DNA from: an uncultured Candidatus Peregrinibacteria bacterium
GTDB lineage: Bacteria > Patescibacteriota > Gracilibacteria > Peribacterales > Peribacteraceae
Direction of reading: 5' to 3'
DNA: 64,000 bases
Assembly: GCA_903825315.1 (NCBI GenBank)
Contig: CAIKAD010000001.1
Location: forward strand, 124,001-188,000
Shown here: positions 6,563 through 23,751 of the stretch, piece after piece
Position numbering within the stretch: the stretch's first letter is position 1
Layout: every line of letters begins with the position of its first letter
The notes under the pieces: model-generated
The model's database searches: none
Told to the model about the DNA's origin: nothing
What the model saw: the letters and a program-made list of their open reading frames with translations, nothing else
Program-made: the position numbers and the translations under genes

Positions 6563-6677
6563 AAGAGGATTGTTGATCCGCCGGTCCGCTGAACAGTGTA
6601 ACCAATGGCTGGGGAATCCGTATTTGTCCCCGAAGGGCCTCTCCCCTAGAATTCCCTCTACTTCCTCTTCCTTCTCT

Positions 6678-9600
6678 ATGGCTCGTACATCCTCGGCAGG
6701 TTTCCTGTTTCAGCGTTACCGCTGGCCGCTTTTTGCAGGTGCCCTCGCGGTGCTGGTCCTCTGCGCCGCCGCTTTCCTCTTTTGGGGGAACCGGCACGGG
6801 CCGGATGTGCGCTTTGCACAGCGGCAGAAGGTCTCCACCAATAGCGCGCTCTACATGAGTTTCCCGGAGCCGATGGACCACAAGAGTGTGCAGGAATCAC
6901 TCAGCATGGTGGAGAAGGTGGAGGGAACGTACGATTGGAAGGACGAGGTGCTCGTTTTTACGCCATCAGCTCCTCTGAAGGCTGCTGCTACCTACACGTT
7001 CGTGCTGGCATCCACGGCTAAGACTGCGGAAGGGTTGCCGCTGGGGCGTAATCTGGAATTCGTCTTCACCGTTGCGGGCCCGCCTGTCGTGGCGGCGCAG
7101 ATTCCGCTGCCGGACGCCGTGCGTGTAAGTTCCGGTTCCAGAATCACCATCATATTTGACCGGCCGATGATTCCGCTCATGCAGGTCCAAGGAGATGTTA
7201 CCAAGGACACCATTCGTGACTGGCCGGTGACCATCGTTCCCGACACACCCGGACGGTGGCGCTGGATCAGCACGGTGGCGCGGGAGTTCATTCCCGCAAA
7301 GCCGCTCCAGGAAGGTACCACGTACACGGTCACGGTGCCCAAGGGCATCACGTCTGTCATCGGCGATGCCACGGCACAAGACTTTCGCTGGAGCTTTGAG
7401 ACGCTGCGGCCGGAGCTTCTCTCTACAGATCCTCAGAGCGGGAGCATTGCGTCCGGGCCCACGACCCTCATCACGCTCACCTTTAACCGGCGGATGGACC
7501 TGCAGAGCGCGAAGGACCTGATTGCGCTCTACCGTGTGCCGCAGACGCCGGCGCCCGTTCCGTCCGTCAACCAGAAGAAAGGGACGGAGACGGTGCCGTT
7601 CAAGGGCCAGGGAATTTCGCCGTCCCTCCCCACATCCAAACCCCCTTCCGGTGACAAGCTCACCCTTACAGACATCCGCTATGGAACCATCAGGGATGAG
7701 AAAGCGCAGAAGAATCTTCCGGTTTTTGAGCAGCTTGTCCTCGTTCCCGCTGAGCCTCTGGCGTTCAATACGGCGTACACCGTCTACGGCGCGCCCGGTG
7801 TCCGCGGGACCATGGGCAGCCTGGGGACGCAGAGCGGGTTCCTCCTCAACTTTCAGACAGTGGGGGATCTGAAGGCAGTGAAGGGGGAATACCTCAAAGA
7901 CGAGCTCTCTATCAGCATCCAGTTCAATAACCCGATGGACGGGGACACTCTCGATAAGGGCATTGCCATCAGCCCAAAGGTCACGCCTCCGGAAGGGAAT
8001 GCTGCGCTCTGGACGGTGACGGACTGGAACGGGGCGATGCAGGTGCGCGCGTATCCGCAACTCCAACCGAGCACCACGTACACGGTCACGGTGGGGACAA
8101 GCGCGAAAGACAAGTACGGCCAGTCACTCAAGGAGCCTTTTGTCTTTTCGTTTACGACGCCCTCGGAGACGCCGCGGGTGTTCATTAACAGCAGGGGCGG
8201 AAGCGAGTTCGGGATCTTCGAACAGGGCAAGCCTCCCGTGTACTACCTCAACGCGATGAATGTGAGCCGGTTAAACCTGGAGTTTGCCAGGCTCACACTT
8301 CCGGATTTCCTCAGTATCCGTTCCCAGGCGCAGGCCAGTTACGATTTCGTTCCCAATCTTGCGGGGAAGGAGATGTACCGGACGTGGAACCTTACGCCCA
8401 CGGCGAAGAAGGACCAATGGGGCGTGACAGAGTTTGATATGGCGAAGCAAGTAGGTTCTTCCCGTTCAGGGCCTGAGAGCCCATCAGGGCCTCGAACGGC
8501 GGGTTCCGGCGGGACGTCCCTTCGACCTGGCATATACGCGCTCTTCCTGCGCGCGCCAGAGTATGTCAACGCATGGAACAATACGCCGGGAGTGAGTAGA
8601 CAGTATTTTGCCATTACCAACCTTGCCGTTACGCTCAAGTATTCCGGGAGCCGCGCGCTCGTGTGGGTCACAAACATGCAGACAGGCGATGCCGTAAAGA
8701 GCGCCCGCGTGGTGGTCCACTCCCTCGATGGCCGCGAGGTACGGTCCGGAACGACGGACGCGCAGGGTTTTTTTGAGACGGAACTTCCGAGCCAGGAGCT
8801 CATCTCCGGATCGAACACCTGGGAGCCGGAGTTCTGGGTGACGGCGGAGACTGCCGATGACTTTGCGTTCGTGAGCAACAGCTGGAACGAAGGCATCCGG
8901 CCGTACAACTTCGATTTCATCCAGGATTTCCGCTACGCGTCGGCGCCTACGTACAAGCTGGATTCCTACATCTACACGGAACGGCCGGTGTACCGTGCCG
9001 GCGATACCGTGCACTTTAAGGGTATTTTGAGGCAGCGAGATTGGGAGGGAACGTATTCGATCCCTTCCGATAAGAAAGTGCTGGTGACGATGAACGATGC
9101 GAACGGGAATGAGGTCTACAAGAAGACGCTCGACATTTCACCATTCGGGTCGTTTACGGGGGACTTCCCCACGGATGCCAAGGCCGTGCTGGGAGAGTAC
9201 GGCATAATGGTCGCGCTGGTGCCGGACGCGGACGTGATGGGCGGCGCCTACGGTCGTTTCTCCTTGCTCGCGTACCGCAAGCCGGAATACAAGGTCACCG
9301 TCACGCCGGAGGCGACGGATTACTTTGACCGGCAGACGGTGAAGGCCACCATCACCGGTGAGTACTACTTCGGCGCGCCGATGAGCAATGCCAAGGTGGC
9401 GTGGCGCGCGACAACCACCGACTACTACTTTAACAAGTACACGGACGGATGGTATGCGTTCTCCACGGAGGACACGTGGTGCTGGTGGGAATGCCAGCGC
9501 AACACGGCGATGCTTACGGAAGGGGAGGGGACGCTGGACGCGGCGGGGCGGCTCGATATTTCCATTCCCGTCAATCTGGAGGACAAGGCGCTGAGCCAGG

Positions 9601-12600
9601 TCCTCACGATCGAGGCGGACATTACGGATGCCAACAACCAGGTAGTGAGCAACCGCGAGTCCGTGTACGTCCACAAGGCAAACGCGTACGTGGGCATCCG
9701 CACGGATGACTACGTAGTGCAGCCGGGCGCACAAGCCTCCGTGCAACTGGTTACGGTGAAGCCCGACGGCACCGCCCTTTCCAGTCAGAATGTGAAGCTT
9801 TCGGTCTACTCCCGCACATGGAACACCATCAAGAAGAAGGGCGTGGACGGCGAGTACTACGAGGAGAACGAGCCCAAGGACACCTTCGTCAAGCAGTACA
9901 CAGCGACCACCGCGGAGGACGGCAAGGGCAGGGCATCCGTCACCATACCGAGCGGCGGCGAGTACCGCATCGTGGCGGAAGTGAGCGACGGACAGGGGCG
10001 CGTGGCCAAGGCAGGTGCGAGCGTGTACGGCTGGTCCAGCAGTTACGTCAACTGGCCGCGTTCCAACAACGACCGTATGGATGTGATTGCGGACAAGCCG
10101 GAGTACAAGGTGGGGGACACGGCAAAAATTCTCGTCAAATCCCCGTACCAGGGGAAGGGCGTCAAAGCGCTCGTTACCGTGGAGCGGGAGGGGATCATCA
10201 GCAAACAGGTGGTGGACATCACAAGCAATGCGCAGTCGTTCTCCATCCCGATCACGGAACACTTTGTGCCCAACGCGTACATTTCCGTGGTAGTGCTCAA
10301 ACCGCGTGTCGGTGAGACGTTCAATGAGAACGGGCTGGATACGGGGTCGCCTGCATTTAAAGTCGGTTATGCCAAGCTCCTTGTGGATATCGCGAGCAAA
10401 AAGTTAGATGTGGCGATTGCCACGGACAAGACGCAGTACGGTCCCGGAGAAAAAGTGACCGTAACCCTCACGACCAAGGACGCCTCAGGCAAGCCCGTGC
10501 CGGCGGAACTCTCGCTCGGTGTGGTGGATATGAGCGTGCTCGCGCTGAGCAGCTTTGAGACGCCGGACCTGGCGCGGCTCTTCTACGCGGAGCGGGGGCT
10601 GGGCGTATACACCTCGCAGATGCTCAGTATGCTCCTCGAGCGGTTTAAGCCGGGGTCCAAGGGAGGCGGTGGCGGGAATCCCGAAACCCGCGCGCGCGGG
10701 AACTTCCTCGATACCGCGTACTGGAATCCTGGGATTGTCACAGACAAGAACGGCCGCGCTACCGTCAGTTTTTCGCTGCCGGACAACCTTACCACGTGGC
10801 AGCTTCTGGCGGTGGGATCCACCAAGCAGCATACGTTCGGTTCCTTTGCCGCCACCACGCTCGAAACCAAGAAGGTCATTGTGCGTCCGGTGCGCCCGCG
10901 TTTTGCGGTGCAGGGCGACAGTGTGACCATCGGCGCCATCGTCCATAACTTCCTGCCGGACACCAAAACATTCACGGTCACGCTGGCCGGCTCTGGATTT
11001 ACGGCAGCGAAGCTGTCCCAGAAGGTGGAAGTGAAGGCCGGAGCGCAGGCAAAGCTCAACTTTCCGGTCACGATCCGCATGGGCAATCAGGTTGTTCTGC
11101 GTCTCACGGCACAAACCGATGGTGCGTTGGATGAGGTTGTGGAATCGTTCCCCGCCTACGCGTACACCGCGCCCCAGTCCGTCGCCACGACCGGTGTCAC
11201 AGACAAAGTGGCGCTGGAGAAAGTGATCGTCCCGTCTCTCAAAGATGCGCCGGATGGCACGCTGTCCGTTGCTGTATCACCGTCACTTGCCGCATACCTT
11301 CCCAAGGCTCTCAACTACCTCGTCCAAGATCCCTACGGTTGTGCGGAGCAGACGATGTCGAGCTTCCTTCCGAGTGTCGTCCTTGCGCGCTTGCAGGCGC
11401 AGGGCGCAGTCACCCTAAGCAAGGCAGAACTGGATGACGTGGTCACCACGGGCCTCCAGCGCATCTACACGTTCCAGCGGAGTGACGGGGGCTTTGGCTA
11501 CTTCGACAGCAGCGACCGGAGCTATCCGCCGCTAACGGCATACATCCTCGAGGGCCTCGCCATTACGAAGCAGAGCGGCTACGCCGTGGACCAGGGCGTG
11601 ATGGATCGCGCGGCAAAGTACCTGGATGGCGTCCTCCGGATGCAGGACCAGAAGAATCCGATGGACCTTACGGAGCGGGCGGGCATCCTGCTGGCGCTGT
11701 CGGAAGCGGGACGCGGGGATGTGAGTTTGCTCAACAACCTTGCGGAGAAGCGGACGCTGCTGCCCATCTTCGCACGCTCGCAACTTGCTCTCGCCTATGC
11801 CAAAACGGCACCCAAGTCCGGCAAGGCGTCGGAGATCACCAAGGAGCTCATCAATTTTGCGCGCGTCGACAGCCGTGGAACGCACTTTGAGGAGGATGAT
11901 GATGCGCAGTGGGGTTCCTTTATGAACACGACGCAGCGCACTACGGCGCTTGTACTGCGTGCGCTCCTGCAGACGGATGCAGATAATGCGTTGCTGCCCA
12001 ACGTCACCCGTTACCTGCTTGCGGTCCGCAGCGACGGGCACTGGGACACCACGCAATCCACCGTTGCCGCGCTCTTCGCACTCTCCGATTATCTTGACCA
12101 CACCGGCGAGCTCAATGCTTCCTACAACGCGGGTGTCTTTATCAACGGCATGCGCGGGCTCGATTGGGACGTGGCCAAAGGACAGGTGCGCGACCGCAAG
12201 GAAGTGGTGATAGCGCTGGACCAGCTCAACCGCAGCAAAGAAAATGAAGTCAAAGTGGGCCTGGAGGGTACGGGCCGCCTCTACTATGACCTGCTCCTAC
12301 ATTACCAGTACGCGGGCGAGACCATTGAGCCGGCGGAGGAGGGGATCAGCGTTACGCGGAATATCAGGCCCTTCAACGGCAAGGGCGATGCATCCAGGCC
12401 GAAACTTGGCGAGACGTACGTGGTCACTCTCACCATCACGGTCCCGCAGGAGCGGCACTTTGTGGCTGTGGAAAGCCCGGTGCCTGCAGGGATGGAAATC
12501 GTGGACCTTGCGCTGGAAACTTCGCAGAAGAATCTCCTCTCGCAGGCCCTGAACCGAAGCGAAGCGCCTGGTTCAGGGCAGGCGGATGACAGTGCGGGCG

Positions 12601-12845
12601 ACCGCTGGTGGTGGGATCCTGCGTACTGGGCAAGCGGACTGTGGCGCTTCTCGCACCATGAAGTGCGCGACGACCAGTACTTCCTCTTCGCGGAGTCACT
12701 GCCTGCTGGGGTTTATCAGTACCAATACGTTGTCCGTGCAACTACGCCCGGTACGTTCCATCAGCGGCCGACGCGGGCGTATGAGATGTATTTCCCGGAG
12801 ACGTTTGGACAGACGGAAGGGAGGCTCGTTACCATCGGAGAATGA
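6678..12845 (+). CDS. Bacterial alpha-2-macroglobulin family protein (thioester type)
   Basis: Starting at the ATG at 6678 the protein has 2055 residues and a signal anchor (about 14-36); the frame opens earlier at 6570 but those 36 codons look like leader sequence. N-terminal Ig-like (Big_5-type) repeats are followed by macroglobulin domains and a C-terminal alpha-toroid region. The reactive thioester motif is intact: Cys1555-Ala-Glu-Gln1558 in PYGCAEQTM. Bacterial A2Ms trap attacking proteases and act with PBP1C as a repair and defence pair; the gene for PBP1C follows directly, the same neighbour order as yfhM-pbpC in Escherichia coli. A Gly-rich patch (about 1330) may be the bait region. 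Very sure of family. Confidence 0.95.
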   Translation: MARTSSAGFLFQRYRWPLFAGALAVLVLCAAAFLFWGNRHGPDVRFAQRQKVSTNSALYMSFPEPMDHKSVQESLSMVEKVEGTYDWKDEVLVFTPSAPLKAAATYTFVLASTAKTAEGLPLGRNLEFVFTVAGPPVVAAQIPLPDAVRVSSGSRITIIFDRPMIPLMQVQGDVTKDTIRDWPVTIVPDTPGRWRWISTVAREFIPAKPLQEGTTYTVTVPKGITSVIGDATAQDFRWSFETLRPELLSTDPQSGSIASGPTTLITLTFNRRMDLQSAKDLIALYRVPQTPAPVPSVNQKKGTETVPFKGQGISPSLPTSKPPSGDKLTLTDIRYGTIRDEKAQKNLPVFEQLVLVPAEPLAFNTAYTVYGAPGVRGTMGSLGTQSGFLLNFQTVGDLKAVKGEYLKDELSISIQFNNPMDGDTLDKGIAISPKVTPPEGNAALWTVTDWNGAMQVRAYPQLQPSTTYTVTVGTSAKDKYGQSLKEPFVFSFTTPSETPRVFINSRGGSEFGIFEQGKPPVYYLNAMNVSRLNLEFARLTLPDFLSIRSQAQASYDFVPNLAGKEMYRTWNLTPTAKKDQWGVTEFDMAKQVGSSRSGPESPSGPRTAGSGGTSLRPGIYALFLRAPEYVNAWNNTPGVSRQYFAITNLAVTLKYSGSRALVWVTNMQTGDAVKSARVVVHSLDGREVRSGTTDAQGFFETELPSQELISGSNTWEPEFWVTAETADDFAFVSNSWNEGIRPYNFDFIQDFRYASAPTYKLDSYIYTERPVYRAGDTVHFKGILRQRDWEGTYSIPSDKKVLVTMNDANGNEVYKKTLDISPFGSFTGDFPTDAKAVLGEYGIMVALVPDADVMGGAYGRFSLLAYRKPEYKVTVTPEATDYFDRQTVKATITGEYYFGAPMSNAKVAWRATTTDYYFNKYTDGWYAFSTEDTWCWWECQRNTAMLTEGEGTLDAAGRLDISIPVNLEDKALSQVLTIEADITDANNQVVSNRESVYVHKANAYVGIRTDDYVVQPGAQASVQLVTVKPDGTALSSQNVKLSVYSRTWNTIKKKGVDGEYYEENEPKDTFVKQYTATTAEDGKGRASVTIPSGGEYRIVAEVSDGQGRVAKAGASVYGWSSSYVNWPRSNNDRMDVIADKPEYKVGDTAKILVKSPYQGKGVKALVTVEREGIISKQVVDITSNAQSFSIPITEHFVPNAYISVVVLKPRVGETFNENGLDTGSPAFKVGYAKLLVDIASKKLDVAIATDKTQYGPGEKVTVTLTTKDASGKPVPAELSLGVVDMSVLALSSFETPDLARLFYAERGLGVYTSQMLSMLLERFKPGSKGGGGGNPETRARGNFLDTAYWNPGIVTDKNGRATVSFSLPDNLTTWQLLAVGSTKQHTFGSFAATTLETKKVIVRPVRPRFAVQGDSVTIGAIVHNFLPDTKTFTVTLAGSGFTAAKLSQKVEVKAGAQAKLNFPVTIRMGNQVVLRLTAQTDGALDEVVESFPAYAYTAPQSVATTGVTDKVALEKVIVPSLKDAPDGTLSVAVSPSLAAYLPKALNYLVQDPYGCAEQTMSSFLPSVVLARLQAQGAVTLSKAELDDVVTTGLQRIYTFQRSDGGFGYFDSSDRSYPPLTAYILEGLAITKQSGYAVDQGVMDRAAKYLDGVLRMQDQKNPMDLTERAGILLALSEAGRGDVSLLNNLAEKRTLLPIFARSQLALAYAKTAPKSGKASEITKELINFARVDSRGTHFEEDDDAQWGSFMNTTQRTTALVLRALLQTDADNALLPNVTRYLLAVRSDGHWDTTQSTVAALFALSDYLDHTGELNASYNAGVFINGMRGLDWDVAKGQVRDRKEVVIALDQLNRSKENEVKVGLEGTGRLYYDLLLHYQYAGETIEPAEEGISVTRNIRPFNGKGDASRPKLGETYVVTLTITVPQERHFVAVESPVPAGMEIVDLALETSQKNLLSQALNRSEAPGSGQADDSAGDRWWWDPAYWASGLWRFSHHEVRDDQYFLFAESLPAGVYQYQYVVRATTPGTFHQRPTRAYEMYFPETFGQTEGRLVTIGE

Positions 12846-12886
12846 AGGGACGCTGGATGTCAGTCGTGGGTCGGATTGGTCGGAAG

Positions 12887-12983
12887 GAATCCGAAGAATC
12901 CGAAGAATCCGAAGAAACCGAAGGTACGTTGCCCTCAGTTTCCTTCCCTCGGATTCCTCGGTTGCGTCGGTTTCTTCGGTTTC
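12887..12983. repeat. Second inverted pair of 9-nt tandem arrays (GAAWCCGAR family)
   Basis: Four 9-mers (GAATCCGAA three times, then GAAACCGAA; 12887-12922) face four inverse-complement 9-mers (CTCGGATTC, CTCGGTTGC, GTCGGTTTC, TTCGGTTTC; 12948-12983). The unit is the same as at 2244-2354, 10.6 kb away. It occupies the gap between the A2M gene and pbpC and happens to be open in the pbpC frame. Confidence 0.75.
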
Positions 12984-12994
12984 CTCATTCGATC

Positions 12995-15331
12995 ATGTAC
13001 GGTTTGGTGCTTTGTGTAATCGTCATAGCGATGGGAACTGTCTTGTGGCCTCTCCCATCGTCCCTCACGCACCCTCAGCCACTCCACTCCGTGCACATTC
13101 TCGACCGCAACGGGCAGTTGCTCTACGAAGCGCGCGGGGAAGAAAGCGGATCGTTCCAGTTCGTACGGCTCGCGGACATTCCCTCATCCCTCACATCCGC
13201 GTTCATTGCGATGGAGGACAGGGACTTTTACCTGCATGGCGGCGTGGATGTGTTGGCCATTGTTCGTGCAGCCTGGCAGAACCTTACCGCGGGCCGCGTT
13301 GTCTCGGGCGGGAGCACGCTTACGCAACAGCTCGTTCGCAACCGTCTGCATCCGCCACGACGGACGTTCCTTTATAAGATCCGCGAAGCGGTCCTCGCGT
13401 GGAAGCTGGATCAGTGGCTCTCCAAAGACCAGATTCTGGAGGCCTACCTCAACACCGTTCCCTTTGGGCACCAGGCGTACGGCGTCGCCGCGGCGACGCG
13501 CATCTATTTTGATAAGGCGCCGGCAGAACTTTCGCTGGCCGAGAGCGCACTCCTCGCTGGGCTCGTTCAGTCTCCCAGTGTTCTCGATCCCTACCGCAAT
13601 CCCAAAGGGGCGAAGGAACGGCAACAACGGGTACTGGATGCCATGCGCGAGACGGGAAAGATCACCAGTGCGTCGTACAAAGAGGCAGTGGTCGAACCGC
13701 TCCACTATGCCAAGGGATCCATTCCCATCCATGCGCCGCACTTCGTTCTCTGGCTGCAGAGTGAACGTCCGGAGGCATTCGACAGTGCTGCGGTTCGGAC
13801 GACGCTCGACCTTCCGCTCCAGCAGGAAGTGGAAGCCATCGTCCAGCGCAAACTGGAGGATCTCCAAGACCGCAATGTGACCTCGGCAGCGGTCGTGGTG
13901 CTGGACGCGCATACCGGTGACATACGCGCTATGGTGGGGTCTGCCGATTACTTTGACGAAACCCATGACGGCGCGGTCAACGTAGCCCTCGCGCCCCGCC
14001 AGCCAGGCTCCGCGCTCAAGCCGTTCACGTACGCGCTGGCCTTATCCCGTGGCGATACGGCAGCTACCACGGTTCCTGATATCGAGACGCAGTTCTTTAC
14101 GCAGGACGGCAATCCTTACGTGCCGCGCAACTATGACTACGGCTATCACGGCCTCGTGCGGTACCGCGAGGCGCTCGCCAACTCCTACAACATCGCCGCG
14201 GTGCGCGTGCTGGAGAAAGTGGGCGTGTCTTCTCTCATCGATTTCCTCCGTTCGGCGGGGATTTCCACCCTTACGGAAAGGCCGGAATATTACGGTCTTG
14301 CCCTCACGCTGGGCGATGCGGAAGTTCCTCTCCTGGAACTCACCTCCGCGTACGGCATGTTTGCGCGCGGCGGTGTAACGCTTCTGCCGCGGGTTCTTGT
14401 TACGGATCCCGTGCAACCGGGCACGCGCCTGCTCGATTCCAAGGTTGCCTGGCTCATCACAGACATCCTAAGTGACGACACGGCGCGTCTTCCGGAATTC
14501 GGCGAAAACACGCCGCTCGCGTTCAACTTTCCCGTGGCGGTCAAAACGGGGACGACCCGCAATTCCCGGGACAACTGGACGGTGGGGTACACGCCGGATG
14601 TGGTTGTGGGCGTATGGGTGGGCAATGCGAATAACTCTCCCATGCGCGAAACGTCGGGGGTCACGGGAGCAGGGCCGATCTTCCACGACGTGATGCTCGC
14701 ATCTGTGAATACAAATTTAGTACAAGAATTTATGCAGCCACAAGGGATAATTCAAAAAAAGATCTGTATGTTATCCGGCAAGATTCCGCGCGAGGATTGC
14801 CCCCATACTATGGAGGAATGGTTCATTGCGGGGACAGAACCGACGGAACAGGATGATGTGTACCGCCGCATCCGGATAGACCGCCGGAACGGTTTGCTGG
14901 CGTCAGATGCATGCAGTCCCGCAGACGTCGAATCCCGTCTCTTTACAGTATTCCCTGCAGAGCTCACCACGTGGGCGCGCGAAAACGGTTACGCGCAACC
15001 GCCCACGGAACTTTCCCCGTTCTGTGGCCAGAGTGGAGCGGCAGCTTCCGTCCGATCTTCCGGCGCTCCCTGGCTCAGTATTCTCAAGCCGCAACAGAAT
15101 GACAGCTTTAAGCTGGATCCGCTCGTGCCCGACGCTGACGAACGCGTGATCTTCCAGGCACAGGCGGATCCCACGATTCGGACGATAGACTGGTACGTGG
15201 ACGGGAAGAATGTAGGCCAGGGGAAGGCGCCGGCATTTCGGTTGGAGTGGCAGCCACAGGTTGGTCATTTTCTCGTCGAAGCACGGGCTAGAGAGATCAG
15301 TGAAAAAAGAAGGATTGAGGTGGTGGAATGA
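12995..15331 (+). CDS. pbpC: Penicillin-binding protein 1C (glycosyltransferase/transpeptidase)
   Basis: A bifunctional peptidoglycan synthase anchored in the membrane. From the ATG at 12995 it has 778 residues: transmembrane anchor (about 2-22), GT51 glycosyltransferase with the catalytic Glu near 74 (AMEDRDFYLHGGVD) and GGSTLTQQLVRN, then a transpeptidase with SxxK Ser339/Lys342 (PGSALKPF), SYN and KTGT (Lys517). The C-terminal domain (about 690-778) looks like the BiPBP_C domain of PBP1C. The frame is open back to 12842, but that stretch is only the 9-nt inverted array (Glu/Ser repeats) and is unlikely to be translated. The A2M gene lies immediately upstream, as expected for the PBP1C-A2M pair. 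Confidence 0.94.
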   Translation: MYGLVLCVIVIAMGTVLWPLPSSLTHPQPLHSVHILDRNGQLLYEARGEESGSFQFVRLADIPSSLTSAFIAMEDRDFYLHGGVDVLAIVRAAWQNLTAGRVVSGGSTLTQQLVRNRLHPPRRTFLYKIREAVLAWKLDQWLSKDQILEAYLNTVPFGHQAYGVAAATRIYFDKAPAELSLAESALLAGLVQSPSVLDPYRNPKGAKERQQRVLDAMRETGKITSASYKEAVVEPLHYAKGSIPIHAPHFVLWLQSERPEAFDSAAVRTTLDLPLQQEVEAIVQRKLEDLQDRNVTSAAVVVLDAHTGDIRAMVGSADYFDETHDGAVNVALAPRQPGSALKPFTYALALSRGDTAATTVPDIETQFFTQDGNPYVPRNYDYGYHGLVRYREALANSYNIAAVRVLEKVGVSSLIDFLRSAGISTLTERPEYYGLALTLGDAEVPLLELTSAYGMFARGGVTLLPRVLVTDPVQPGTRLLDSKVAWLITDILSDDTARLPEFGENTPLAFNFPVAVKTGTTRNSRDNWTVGYTPDVVVGVWVGNANNSPMRETSGVTGAGPIFHDVMLASVNTNLVQEFMQPQGIIQKKICMLSGKIPREDCPHTMEEWFIAGTEPTEQDDVYRRIRIDRRNGLLASDACSPADVESRLFTVFPAELTTWARENGYAQPPTELSPFCGQSGAAASVRSSGAPWLSILKPQQNDSFKLDPLVPDADERVIFQAQADPTIRTIDWYVDGKNVGQGKAPAFRLEWQPQVGHFLVEARAREISEKRRIEVVE

Positions 15332-18206: not shown

Positions 18207-18944
18207 TCAACTGTTTGGCATCTCCCTCAGTGTCTTGAGCAGCTCCTCAATTTTCTCCTGCTCCTCCAGCACATACGTTGCCTGTGACGGTCTTTGTCCG
18301 ACATGAATCGTCAGGATGCGCGGATCCTTAAGAGCGAACACGTCCTCGTCCGTTTCGTCATCACCGATGTACAGTGCGCGGGAGCAGCCCGTCTCCCGCA
18401 ACAGCCGCATCAGAGTGTCCGCTTTGGACGGAGTCCCCTGAGGGATGATGTTGATGCAATGAATGCCGGGGAGGATGCGGATGGGCGGAAGCGTGGCAAG
18501 AGCCTGGTCGACCGCAGTGTAGAGTTCGTCGAGGATGTCTTTGGTGCGGCTGTGGACCGAGAGGGTGATCGCCTTGTCCTCGATCCACGCGTCGCCGTGG
18601 AGAAGGGGAGTGAGGTACGCCTTCCAGGCGCGGGCGACGGCGGTTTCGTCGGGCTCGTCCTCATCCCTGTCGGACCATTCCGCCCCGTGGTTTCCGATCA
18701 CGAAAGAAAGCGGTTTAGGGAAGTAGCGGAGGATATCGGTACGCGCGCGGCCCGAAACAATGGCGACGGGCGTCCGTTCGTTCAATTGTTCAAGTATCTG
18801 ACGCACGTTCGGCAGCAATTGCACTTTTTCCGGATGCGGTTGGAGCGGCGCGAGCGTCCCGTCAAAATCGAACGCAAGGAGCGGCCGCTTTTCCATAAGT
18901 GACCGCAGGGCAGATAGTCCGTCGTTGGATAGGATGGGAATCAT
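18207..18944 (-). CDS. otsB: Trehalose-6-phosphate phosphatase OtsB
   Basis: OtsB dephosphorylates trehalose-6-phosphate to trehalose, the second step of the OtsA-OtsB route. The start at 18944 gives 245 residues, normal for a HAD-type trehalose-phosphatase: DFDGTLAPL (nucleophile Asp26 and Asp28), VSGR, GNHGAEW and the late GDDETDEDVFAL motif. The start codon overlaps the otsA stop as ATGA, so the two genes are probably translationally coupled. The frame is open for another 68 codons upstream, but that part is only the shadow of otsA. The product (trehalose) is an osmoprotectant or envelope sugar. Confidence 0.94.
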   Translation of the reverse strand: MIPILSNDGLSALRSLMEKRPLLAFDFDGTLAPLQPHPEKVQLLPNVRQILEQLNERTPVAIVSGRARTDILRYFPKPLSFVIGNHGAEWSDRDEDEPDETAVARAWKAYLTPLLHGDAWIEDKAITLSVHSRTKDILDELYTAVDQALATLPPIRILPGIHCINIIPQGTPSKADTLMRLLRETGCSRALYIGDDETDEDVFALKDPRILTIHVGQRPSQATYVLEEQEKIEELLKTLREMPNS

Positions 18945-21193
18945 GTCGATTTGGGCAGCGGTGAGAACAAGGTACGGGAGACATTGTGCACTACCCTGGC
19001 ACGTTGGCGCATGCGCGCGGCGTCCAGGAGCATCCGGCCCGCCCAGCGGTAGACGTTGAAGTCGTGGAGAATGCCGCGCATGTTGCGCATGCGGTCGCGC
19101 TGTTCGGTGGCGGGCATGGAAAGGGCGGCGTGGAGCGCGTTCGCGCACTGGTCGGTGTAGTAGGGATTGACGATGAGCGCTTCCGGCAGTTCGCGCGCGG
19201 CGCCCGTGAACTGGCTCAACACAAGTACGCCTTGCTCGTCATCACGTGCCGCAACAAATTCCTTGGCCACCAGGTTCATGCCATCGTGGAGGCTTCCCAC
19301 AAAGCAGAGGTCCGCCGCGCGGTACAGGTCCACCACTTCCTGCTGCTCCGCATGTTCGGTGTACAGGATAATCGGTTCGTAGCCGTTGCGCCCGTAGCGG
19401 CGGTTGATGCGGTTGGCGAGGACAGCTGCTTCTTCCCGGAAGCGCTGGTACTGCTCGATCTTGCTCCGCGTGGGCGCGGCAATCTGGAGGAGCGTAAACT
19501 TGCCGATCCATTCCGGATGCATTTCCAGGAGCCGCTCCACGGCGCGGAACTTTTCCAGAATGCCTTTGGTGTAGTCAAAACGGTCCACGCCCACGCCGAG
19601 CATCCGGTCCGGCGGCAGGTTGTACCTGGCGCGGACAATTTTGCGGGCTTCTGCTATTGGCTTGGCCTGGCGGAGCAGGCGGCCGGGGTACTCGATGGAG
19701 ATGGGATAGCGCTGCACGCCGGTGATGCCGCCGCCGTACGACACGTTCCAGTGCTCGCGGTCGATACGGCATTCGAGGAAGCGTTCAAGCGTGTCGATGA
19801 AGTTGTTGCAATGCGAGCGGGTATGGAAGCCCATGATGCTGCTGCCGAGGAGGCCGTGGAGTATTTCCTCCGTCCAGGGGCAAATACCGAATGCTTCGGG
19901 GTTGGGCCACGGGATGTGCCAGAACGTGATCACCGAAGCCTTGGGGAGGCGCTCCCGCAGCAGGCGCGGGACGAGGGCGAGGAGGTAATCCTGCACCAGG
20001 ATTACGGGGTCCTCTGTCTTGGCTTCCTGCACTACCGCGTCCGCAAACTTCTCGTTGACGCGCTTATACTGTTCCCAGTCGGCACTGCGGAATGTCGGAC
20101 GCACATGCGCAATGTGGCACAGTGGCCACAATCCCTCATTCGCGAAGCCGTAGTAGTAACCGTCCTCCTCTTCCTTGGTAAGCCACACGCGGCGAAGCCG
20201 ATACTGCGGGTGGCCGGGTGGCACATCCACGTGGTCTGCACTGTCGACGACGTCCCGGTCCGCATCACCGGACCCGTGCGCCACCCATGTGCCGGAGCAC
20301 GCTCGCATCACCGGCTCCAGTGCGGTTACGAGACCGCTGGCAGGAGTCTTTACGGTCACCTTTCCGTCACGCTTGATGTGGATGTAGGGCTCGCGGTTGG
20401 AAACGACGATCACCTCGTCGCCTGCAAGTTCTTTTTGCAGGAGTTCCTTGAGCGTGCGCGGCGTCCATGCGGTTTGGATATCATCACGCAGCCGGCGGTC
20501 CGTCTCCAGATCCCGCAGGAGATTGCGCAGGTCGCGCACGACGGGCTGCAGTTCCGGCGGCGCGGAAGATGAACCGCGTGGCCCTTTATGGAGAAGTCCC
20601 CGCATACCTTGTACCCATCCCCGCCAGCTCAACTGCGCGATGACCACAGTGATAAAGGCAATGACGGCGCCCACCGCTGCAATAAAGGCCATGATGGTAC
20701 GTTTGGTCTCCTCACTGCGGTTTAACACAAAGCTCATGTCGTGTACCAATATCATGTCACCGAGTACCCGTCCCGATCCCTGCACCATGTGGTACGCCAC
20801 GTGCACCGGTCCCTTGGGCAGTTCCACGACGTCGCTGAGTGGTTCTAGGCTCTCGTCCGTTGCGGGCATGGGCGGGCATATCACTGTCTCCGGGAATTTG
20901 TCCGTTTGGTACGTGAGCTTACCGTCCACATTGCAGAATCCCAGCGCAAAGAGACGCTCATCCTGCATCATGCGGTCGAAGAACTGCTGCACCTTCTTCT
21001 TGGTCTTGGTGCGGTCGTTGTCGATTACCTCAAAGAGCGAGTCATCCACCGTGTTGCCGATAAGCTTGGCCCGCAAGTCCAAGTCCTTCACGAACCATTG
21101 CACCATCAGCCTGTCCACCACAGGGACCACCGCGTAGGCGAAGAGTCCCAGGATGACGACCAGCGGGACGAGGAATCGGAGCGTGAGACGCAC
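18941..21193 (-). CDS. otsA: Trehalose-6-phosphate synthase with N-terminal membrane sensor-like module
   Basis: The C-terminal 490 residues are a GT20 trehalose-6-phosphate synthase (UDP-/ADP-glucose plus glucose-6-phosphate): VVSNREPY (264-270), [18 protein letters not shown]-type [53 protein letters not shown]. Ahead of this is a module not found in ordinary OtsA: a transmembrane helix (about 7-25), an extracytoplasmic domain of about 135 residues, a second helix (164-188) and a juxtamembrane helical stretch (215-255). The layout copies a transmembrane receptor (Cache/PAS-like sensor plus HAMP-like linker). Usual OtsA is about 450-500 residues and soluble; this is 750. Sensing of an outside signal is inferred. 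Upstream partner of otsB (ATGA overlap). Confidence 0.92.
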
Positions 21194-21321: not shown

Positions 21322-21912
21322 CTATCCCTTTACAGTCTCCAACTTATTTCCGCTCATGAGCACGAGGAGCGACGTCAATCCGTTCATCAAAAATGCTGTT
21401 GCTGCCATGAGCGGGATGGTCACATATCCGAACGCGAACTTTATCTCCGTTCCCGCGCACGACACTCCGCTTGCGTCACAGGGCTTGAGCGATCCGCCGA
21501 GAGGAAGTGGATTGAGATGCGCTTGCACCTGCTCACCGTAATTTACGATGGAGAAGATGATACCGATGATGCTCAAGGCGAGGATATACCATGCGATGCT
21601 TCGTTCTTTCCTCCACAGTGCAACGGCAAGGAGGATCACTTGCGGGTACATGAAAATTCGTTGGAGCCAGCACAGCTTGCATGGCGTCCACCCCGCGATT
21701 TCCGAAAAGAACAGGCTCCCCCCTGTGGCAACGAGCGCAACGATGAGCATCAGGAGCACGCTGTGCCGCACGATCCAGTTCGAGATCGATTGCTCCACCC
21801 GGGAACTTCGCTGGAGGACCAGTGCAAGAAGACCCAGGGCAATCACCTGACCCACGATGGTAAGTGCGGAGAGCAACGTGACGACTTGCGGGGTGTAATC
21901 GGAGAGGAACAT
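21322..21912 (-). CDS. DsbB/BdbC-like disulfide bond formation membrane protein
   Basis: A four-helix quinone-linked thiol oxidase that re-oxidises a DsbA-type partner, supporting disulfides in exported proteins. From the ATG at 21912 the product has 196 residues. The first redox pair is CKLC at the start of helix 2 (GWTPCKLCWLQRIFMYPQ), and the second pair lies in the outer loop (LKPCDASGVSC). Both are needed for activity. The frame extends upstream to 21987, but those 25 codons are not family-like. Nearby Cys-rich surface proteins are plausible clients; no DsbA was seen in the window. Confidence 0.88.
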   Translation of the reverse strand: MFLSDYTPQVVTLLSALTIVGQVIALGLLALVLQRSSRVEQSISNWIVRHSVLLMLIVALVATGGSLFFSEIAGWTPCKLCWLQRIFMYPQVILLAVALWRKERSIAWYILALSIIGIIFSIVNYGEQVQAHLNPLPLGGSLKPCDASGVSCAGTEIKFAFGYVTIPLMAATAFLMNGLTSLLVLMSGNKLETVKG

Positions 21913-22075
21913 GTGGGTGATTGTAACATGGGGTGGAGACGTTGTGCGTACACGATCCTTTCTCCGTTCCATGATGCCGTGGAACATCCGTCCTTCGCAT
22001 CCTTAAGGGCAGATCACGCAGTGCCACACCACAATCCGGTTCCCGCGCACTAGTCATGGATGGGTGTACCACCGT

Positions 22076-22081
22076 TACAAT
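22076..22081 (+). promoter_or_regulatory. -10 element of a probably leaderless transcript
   Basis: TACAAT lies 8 nt before the ATG at 22090, so transcription would begin at or next to the start codon. This decides the start at 22090 over the in-frame ATG at 22060, which lies upstream of the -10 element. Confidence 0.5.
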
Positions 22082-22089
22082 CCGATCCC

Positions 22090-23751
22090 ATGGTTACCAT
22101 TGCGTCATCGGCCAAAGAACTGACAAGTTGCCAGAAGCACGCATGGGACATTTTGCAGCGGGAGGGGAACGTGTTCCTCACGGGCGCTGCGGGCACAGGC
22201 AAGAGCTACCTGCTCGGGCAGTATCTCAAGGACAAGATGCCAGATGCTTTTCCGGTTGTCGCCAGTACCGGAGCTGCCGCCGTGATCGTGGGGGGCCGCA
22301 CATTCCATAGCTTCTTTGGGCTTGGCATATTGGAAGGCGGCTTGCAGGCTTCCGTTGCGCGGGCGCTGCGGAGCCGACGGGTCCTGCTCCGGCTGCAGCG
22401 AGCGTACTGCGTCGTCATTGACGAAGTGTCCATGCTCTCCGGCACGCTCCTCAAAGCCGCGGAGACAGTTGCCCGCCGCGCGCGGGGTATCGATGAGCCA
22501 TGGGGCGGGCTGCGCATTATTGCTGTCGGAGATTTTGCCCAGCTCCCGCCGGTTACGCGCGGAAACGAGGACAAGGACTGGGCATTCCTCCATCCCGTAT
22601 GGGAAGAGAGCGACTTTCAACCCGCCCTCCTCTCCACCGTCGTCCGCACGCAGGAGACGGACTTCCTGGAGATCCTTAACTTTGTGCGCGAAGGCACGGT
22701 GAACGAACGCGTGGAACGTTTCCTCGAGGAGCGGAGCAATGTCCCCACGTCGGAGCACGTGGAAGCCACGCGCCTCTACCCGCACCGCGCGCAGGCGGAG
22801 AGCTACAACCTGCGCCGCCTGGAATCCCTCCCCGGACTTGAACGCGCATTCCAAACGCACTATGAAGGCGACGAGCGGTACATGGACTCCGCGCGGCGCG
22901 TAGTCCCCATCCCCGATACTCTCCAGCTAAAAGAGGGTGCGCTCATCATGATGCGGAAGAACGATATGCAGGAGCCGCAACTCTACGTCAACGGCAGCCT
23001 TGGCTGGGTGCGGCGCATTGGTGACGAAACGTTGACGATTGATCTTCTCAGCGGCGAGACGATTGAGGTTACTCCCCAGAAGTTTGCGGTTCTCGACGGC
23101 GACGGCCAGGAAGTGGTGGGTGCCTTCAACTTTCCCGTCACGCTCGCGTGGGCCGCAACGATTCACAAGGCGCAGGGCGCTTCTCTGGATCGCATGATCG
23201 TCGACCTCGCTTCCCTCTGGGAACCCGGCCAGGCGTATGTGGCGCTGAGCCGCGTACGTTCCGCATCCGGTCTTGCCATCGAACGCTGGCATCCCTCCTC
23301 CATCCGCGCCGAGCCGCTCGTCACGACGTTCTATAACAATCTCGCCGATGCCACGCAGAAGTACGTCCCGCGCCCGCTCTTCGTGACGCCCGTGGGTATT
23401 CCCAAGCACCCCATCGTGAAGAAGAAATCAAAAGGGAAGCGGGAGCAGCGCGCCGAGCTGATCCGTGAACTCATCAACAAGCAGACCTCTCTCGCCAAGA
23501 TATCCGGTGTGGTGGGCATCAAACAGGACCGTATCCTCCTTACTATAGAGAAGCTGGTTGCCAAAGGACATACGCTCGATCTCTCCTACCTCACCGAAGG
23601 TATCCGTGAGCTCTCCCGCATTCGCAGTGCCTTCGAAGAGCTGGGGCTGGAGCGTCTTAAGCCGGTCTATGAGCAGCTCGACGAAGCCGTTTCCTATGAA
23701 ACGTTGAAGGTGGTGCGGTGTGTGATGGCTTCGGCAGGGACGGATGTGTAG
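22090..23751 (+). CDS. Pif1-type DNA helicase
   Basis: A 553-residue superfamily 1B helicase related to Pif1/RecD, acting 5' to 3' on DNA during replication or recombination. Walker A is GAAGTGKSYL (near residue 31), Walker B is VIDEVSMLS, followed by GDFAQLPPV and a C-terminal UvrD-like half with TLAWAATIHKAQGASLD and YVALSRVRS. The last 130 residues (after a Lys-rich linker, KKKSKGKREQR) look like a helix-turn-helix/HTH_40-type tail that is common in bacterial Pif1 proteins. The gene stands alone just before tRNA-Asn and the tRNA-associated island. Confidence 0.9.
   Translation: MVTIASSAKELTSCQKHAWDILQREGNVFLTGAAGTGKSYLLGQYLKDKMPDAFPVVASTGAAAVIVGGRTFHSFFGLGILEGGLQASVARALRSRRVLLRLQRAYCVVIDEVSMLSGTLLKAAETVARRARGIDEPWGGLRIIAVGDFAQLPPVTRGNEDKDWAFLHPVWEESDFQPALLSTVVRTQETDFLEILNFVREGTVNERVERFLEERSNVPTSEHVEATRLYPHRAQAESYNLRRLESLPGLERAFQTHYEGDERYMDSARRVVPIPDTLQLKEGALIMMRKNDMQEPQLYVNGSLGWVRRIGDETLTIDLLSGETIEVTPQKFAVLDGDGQEVVGAFNFPVTLAWAATIHKAQGASLDRMIVDLASLWEPGQAYVALSRVRSASGLAIERWHPSSIRAEPLVTTFYNNLADATQKYVPRPLFVTPVGIPKHPIVKKKSKGKREQRAELIRELINKQTSLAKISGVVGIKQDRILLTIEKLVAKGHTLDLSYLTEGIRELSRIRSAFEELGLERLKPVYEQLDEAVSYETLKVVRCVMASAGTDV

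Follow-up and report, generated by a model that had tools for sequence, protein, structure and literature searches.

Why should a trehalose-6-phosphate synthase carry, ahead of its catalytic domain, two transmembrane helices enclosing what looks like the input domain of a receptor? The question is raised by one gene in the window, by which we mean the whole 64,000-nucleotide stretch of DNA analysed here. Computation gave us its reading frame and family, its predicted fold and conserved residues, its gene neighbourhood and its distribution, and from these we arrive at a probability of roughly 60% that the protein is a receptor-enzyme, a trehalose-6-phosphate synthase controlled by its own sensor. 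The gene lies in a genome of 1.29 Mb and encodes a 750-residue membrane protein, as recognised from Pfam, hydropathy and full-length homologues. It occupies positions 18941-21193, exactly where the preliminary description had placed it; the strand, left unstated there, is the minus strand, with a GTG start at 21193. The frame runs through 750 codons with zero internal stops, an in-frame stop lies 9 nt 5' of the GTG, and an AAGGAG motif is found about 13-18 nt 5' of it. A frameshift or mis-start artefact is ruled out by this unbroken frame and by relatives with an identical N-terminus. A promoter scan gave matches at no more than chance level, and a terminator scan was likewise uninformative.

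The layout of the N-terminal part is that of a membrane sensor (all positions within the gene refer to the minus strand). Hydropathy peaks of 2.66 and 2.88 mark the cores of two transmembrane helices, TM1 at residues 8-26 (21116-21172), within a long modelled helix spanning residues 2-59, and TM2 at residues 167-185 (20639-20695). The segment between them, residues 31-163 (20705-21103), would lie outside the membrane and is predicted to form a PAS/Cache-like domain, conserved in relatives. Hydropathy and AlphaFold thus agree with the earlier proposal of two helices around an extracytoplasmic domain some 135 residues long. The AlphaFold model of residues 1-258, built with 32 relatives, has a mean pLDDT of 87.6, reaching about 90 at residues 81-160 with the exception of one loop. 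By DSSP it consists of helices at 2-59 and 64-75, five strands within 81-152, a helix at 154-202, a loop, and helices at 216-238 and 245-257, so that a long N-terminal helix leads to an antiparallel, PAS-like sheet set between the two transmembrane helices, as in extracytoplasmic PAS/Cache domains.

Foldseek matched this module to the modelled full-length WalK (E 2.7e-8) and to the WalK ectodomain (E 4.6e-6 to about 1e-5), and also to KinD and CitA. Because the solved structures closest to it belong to extracytoplasmic PAS/Cache sensors, the N-terminal part is, on the strength of the model, an extracytoplasmic PAS/Cache fold and more than a simple anchor. The preliminary description had called for a structure prediction here and had allowed for a frameshift artefact or an anchor without a folded ectodomain; the intact frame and, at the level of prediction, the confident fold point the other way. 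Its comparison to a chemoreceptor holds in part: a receptor-like module does precede the GT20 domain, but the best structural matches are sensors of histidine kinases, not chemoreceptors, and Pfam finds neither a methyl-accepting nor a CheA-CheW signalling domain in the protein, the linker leading only to GT20. WalK, KinD and CitA share with the fusion the order of transmembrane helix, long helix, PAS-like sheet, transmembrane helix and HAMP-like segment, whereas their output is a kinase instead of a sugar synthase and sequence identity is only about 15%. The module's sequence gave zero matches to PDB chains. In clade A, the group that includes the window's copy, no named Pfam sensor family scored above cut-off, and CHASE4 alone appeared, in 4 of 40 members, with a best E of 0.007.

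From TM2 the chain continues into a helix, a low-confidence loop and a second helix (residues 190-240; 20474-20626). By layout it is plausible that this segment is HAMP-like, and by profile comparison the case is weak: hhalign gives a collinear alignment with HAMP domains of E. coli, at a P of 0.0057 for a single comparison and a probability of 3%, Pfam HAMP has zero matches in clade A, and confidence in the AlphaFold model is lowest at the connector. It is followed by a conserved helix at residues 243-258 (20420-20467), in which W243, L248, L252 and G258 are invariant among relatives, and which we read as coupling to, or packing on, the enzyme. The AlphaFold helices and a Pfam GT20 match at residues 260-723 bear out the earlier view of a helical linker running into a complete GT20 enzyme.

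The fusion, which the preliminary description had proposed seeking in other genomes, proved to be widespread. A genome scan, using one genome per species, yielded at least 555 confirmed related loci, and the best 80 of these all align from residue 1 to about residue 740, through the N-terminus and the enzyme. Relatives occur in Nitrospira, Betaproteobacteria, Geobacter, Bdellovibrionota, Acidobacteriota, Gemmatimonadota and others. Among sampled genomes the module was present in 35 of 151 in the family of a Sulfurisoma genome and in 26 of 148 in the phylum of a Nitrospira genome, against just 6 of 380 in the phylum to which the window belongs. In each of the 12 whole genomes checked, the module was joined to GT20 alone. 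The idea of a shuffled receptor with varied outputs was accordingly rejected, and a seeming exception of 407 residues, the third sensor-GT20 copy in genome G546 (L115, G546:C1:284500-288500), turned out to be a GT20 gene split by a change of frame inside the GT20 domain, owing either to decay of the copy or to an error of assembly. The full-length fusion was found in 0 of 359 plasmid records. A GT20 protein with a single N-terminal anchor and no ectodomain is encoded on the Aminobacter plasmid pAA02 (L114, 3785-5602); it retains the coupling helix, and it indicates that the enzyme can also occur with no sensor attached.

It is on this Aminobacter variant, together with the constant association of the module with one output, that the first competing explanation draws. 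According to it, the N-terminus would be a structured membrane anchor or an oligomerisation scaffold that takes no part in signalling and keeps the synthase on the membrane, perhaps next to a protein that uses or exports trehalose. A module never seen with another output would also fit such a fixed structural role, and Pfam finds nothing in it above cut-off that would mark the ligand-binding motif of an established sensor family. Yet the ectodomain has the fold of known sensors, and a folded domain in which W33, D37, R41, R80, D152 and R159 are invariant across the alignment of relatives, along with two cysteines, exceeds what an anchor would need. Among relatives the mean pairwise identity falls from 70% in GT20 and 65% in TM1 to 51% in the linker and 44% in the ectodomain; a part that diverges faster than the enzyme while keeping invariant residues is what one expects of an input domain. 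We regard a purely anchoring or scaffolding role as rather unlikely.

The two cysteines, Cys87 (20933-20935) and Cys106 (20876-20878), occur in all 78 clade A sequences compared, always 19 residues apart, even in the divergent members L120-L125 and L131. With both placed by prediction in the domain outside the membrane, a disulfide between them is the natural reading and a probable one. The pair is a feature of the fusion family; the comparison with the WalK ectodomain was one of fold. Such constancy could also belong to a sensor of redox state or cell-envelope stress, in which the pair would open and close with outside redox conditions and so set trehalose synthesis. A gene for a DsbB-like disulfide oxidoreductase (21322-21987, minus strand; Pfam DsbB 2.2e-11), next to the synthase in the host genome, is compatible with this, but a purely structural disulfide would look equally invariant, the neighbour is not kept in relatives, and in a second clade the same layout occurs with zero cysteines. 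We find redox sensing by this pair improbable. The DsbB-like gene lies upstream of the synthase, separated by 128 nt, and its position beside an enzyme with a predicted ectodomain disulfide is suggestive, but the pairing is seen only here. DsbB was rejected as a conserved partner, having no recurrent presence in the relatives' loci, and for that reason we treat the linkage as probably incidental.

The second clade, clade B, comprises five Patescibacteria and four Nitrospirota proteins (L116-L119 and L126-L130) of about 750 residues. They share with clade A the order of transmembrane helix, ectodomain, transmembrane helix, HAMP-like segment and GT20, and differ from it in having another, cysteine-free ectodomain and a clearer HAMP-like linker. 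In a GT20 tree they form a separate group with supports of 90/92, and Pfam detects sCache_3_2, dCache and CHASE8 in them below cut-off only. A different ectodomain in the same arrangement we count in favour of the receptor-enzyme reading.

The catalytic domain itself (residues 260-723; 19025-20416) covers positions 2-469 of the 473 in Pfam PF00982, with 410 bits and E = 1.3e-122, and its best Foldseek matches are structures of trehalose-6-phosphate synthases, at a TM-score of about 0.9 by target length. Equivalents of the OtsA binding residues R9, G22, Y76, W85, D130, H154, R262, K267, R300, D361-V366 and E369 are kept; among these residues, which in E. coli OtsA bind UDP-glucose and glucose-6-phosphate, all those compared for UDP-glucose are retained, and so are the acceptor-side residues R9, Y76, W85 and R300. 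The GWSG loop of OtsA is replaced by AHGSG, and the loop tryptophan near the acceptor is missing, a correspondence that is approximate in that the published Trp40 was placed on a glycine. OtsA-type enzymes (E. coli, 1gz5/1uqu; Mycobacterium thermoresistibile, 5jio) thus share with the fusion the entire catalytic domain and, of the substrate residues compared, nearly all. OtsA, however, is soluble and begins at the equivalent of residue 261, whereas the fusion has 258 extra residues made up of the two transmembrane helices, the ectodomain, the HAMP-like linker and the coupling helix. The NCBIfam equivalog TIGR02400 for OtsA scored 419.8 bits, below its cut-off of 564.85, and the NCBIfam profile for glucosylglycerol-phosphate synthase scored 302 bits. 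By sequence, the domain is a GT20 of the trehalose-6-phosphate synthase kind outside that narrow equivalog, and the missed cut-off makes its product an inferred one. The host genome also encodes a second GT20, a soluble 735-residue bifunctional synthase-phosphatase (G000:C2:18763-20160; locus L010, 1480-3687), which shares about 34% identity with the window's enzyme.

The neighbouring genes speak for trehalose. In the sequence ATGA at 18941-18944, the synthase's stop codon overlaps with the start of a gene for a trehalose-6-phosphate phosphatase of about 245 residues (18207-18944, minus strand; Pfam and NCBIfam T6PP above cut-off). Of 73 loci in relatives, 49 have an adjoining trehalose-phosphatase gene, 45 have a trehalase-like GH15 gene in the vicinity, and 34 have both. 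A related genome (G030) has the order GH15, synthase, phosphatase; in the window the DsbB-like gene takes the place of GH15, and two GH15 genes are found elsewhere in the host genome. Further along the window is a gene for a PIF1-like helicase with a C-terminal HTH_40 domain (22060-23751, plus strand). At 6570-15331, on the plus strand, a large alpha-2-macroglobulin-like protein of 2091 residues is followed by an overlapping gene for a penicillin-binding protein with a BiPBP_C domain; alpha-2-macroglobulin with PBP1C is a usual gene pairing, occurring here in a Peribacteria genome.

A cluster of the same three enzyme types as those adjoining in many relatives, TPP-GH15-TPS, is annotated in Ramlibacter tataouinensis (Rta_36480-36500) as serving trehalose synthesis and breakdown (PMC3164672). 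The likeness lies in the enzyme types, the passages on this cluster in that account mentioning no sensor or membrane part of the synthase (PMC3164672). That the window's GT20 makes another product, from a different acceptor sugar phosphate, would suit the altered loop with its lost tryptophan, the shortfall against the equivalog cut-off (420 versus 565 bits) and a genome already supplied with a bifunctional enzyme, but this is the least probable reading of all, given the phosphatase directly downstream and the GH15 gene so often nearby, the lower score as a glucosylglycerol-phosphate synthase, the fold matches and the Ramlibacter annotation (PMC3164672).

The high-identity fusion was present in 3 of 60 near genomes, the window's own included, and in the GT20 tree the window's copy falls in a three-member Peribacteraceae branch within clade A (one member, L012, being apparently the G003 locus). 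Since so few near genomes carry it, and as one branch inside clade A, the window's copy was likely acquired horizontally from another phylum.

The receptor-enzyme reading is favoured by the intact frame, the complete GT20 with its kept OtsA residues and the confident sensor-like fold, by conservation of the module across the best 80 of at least 555 relatives and its exclusive union with GT20 in the 12 genomes, and by the phosphatase and GH15 neighbours. Counted against it are the weak HAMP similarity, the low-confidence connector and the anchor-only variant of Aminobacter. According to this model, the PAS/Cache-like domain, held outside the membrane by the two helices and probably stapled by the Cys87-Cys106 disulfide, would sense some chemical or physical state. 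The change would be relayed, presumably within a dimer, by way of TM2, a pair of helices resembling a degenerate HAMP, and the coupling helix to the cytoplasmic GT20, which would form trehalose-6-phosphate from nucleotide-glucose and glucose-6-phosphate; the phosphatase from the overlapping gene would then convert this to trehalose. Anatomy and conservation suggest that the ectodomain may switch the enzyme directly. Osmolarity as the signal, put forward in the preliminary description, would be a guess, if a reasonable one, from the general biology of trehalose and not from any feature of this gene.

If the ectodomain does control the enzyme, trehalose synthesis would be switched straight from an outside cue inside one protein. 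The open-licence papers covered by our literature search held no description or test of a sensor- or membrane-fused trehalose-6-phosphate synthase, nor of such a one-protein shortcut for trehalose; domain-architecture databases may already have an entry for this combination. Tentatively, at somewhat less than even odds, we see here a class of transmembrane receptors that is widespread and as yet undescribed. As their direct output its members would control a compatible-solute synthase allosterically, with no kinase, second messenger or transcriptional step in between; two ectodomain clades, disulfide-stapled and cysteine-free, would read different outside signals, and ultra-small Patescibacteria would have acquired the system. 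Members of the family are frequent in soil and groundwater bacteria and in nitrifiers, and several cultured carriers, Herbaspirillum, Noviherbaspirillum, Sulfurisoma, Geomobilimonas and Methylotetracoccus, make it testable. CPR bacteria have few signalling proteins. If the model is true, they would have gained, by gene transfer, a ready-made stress response.
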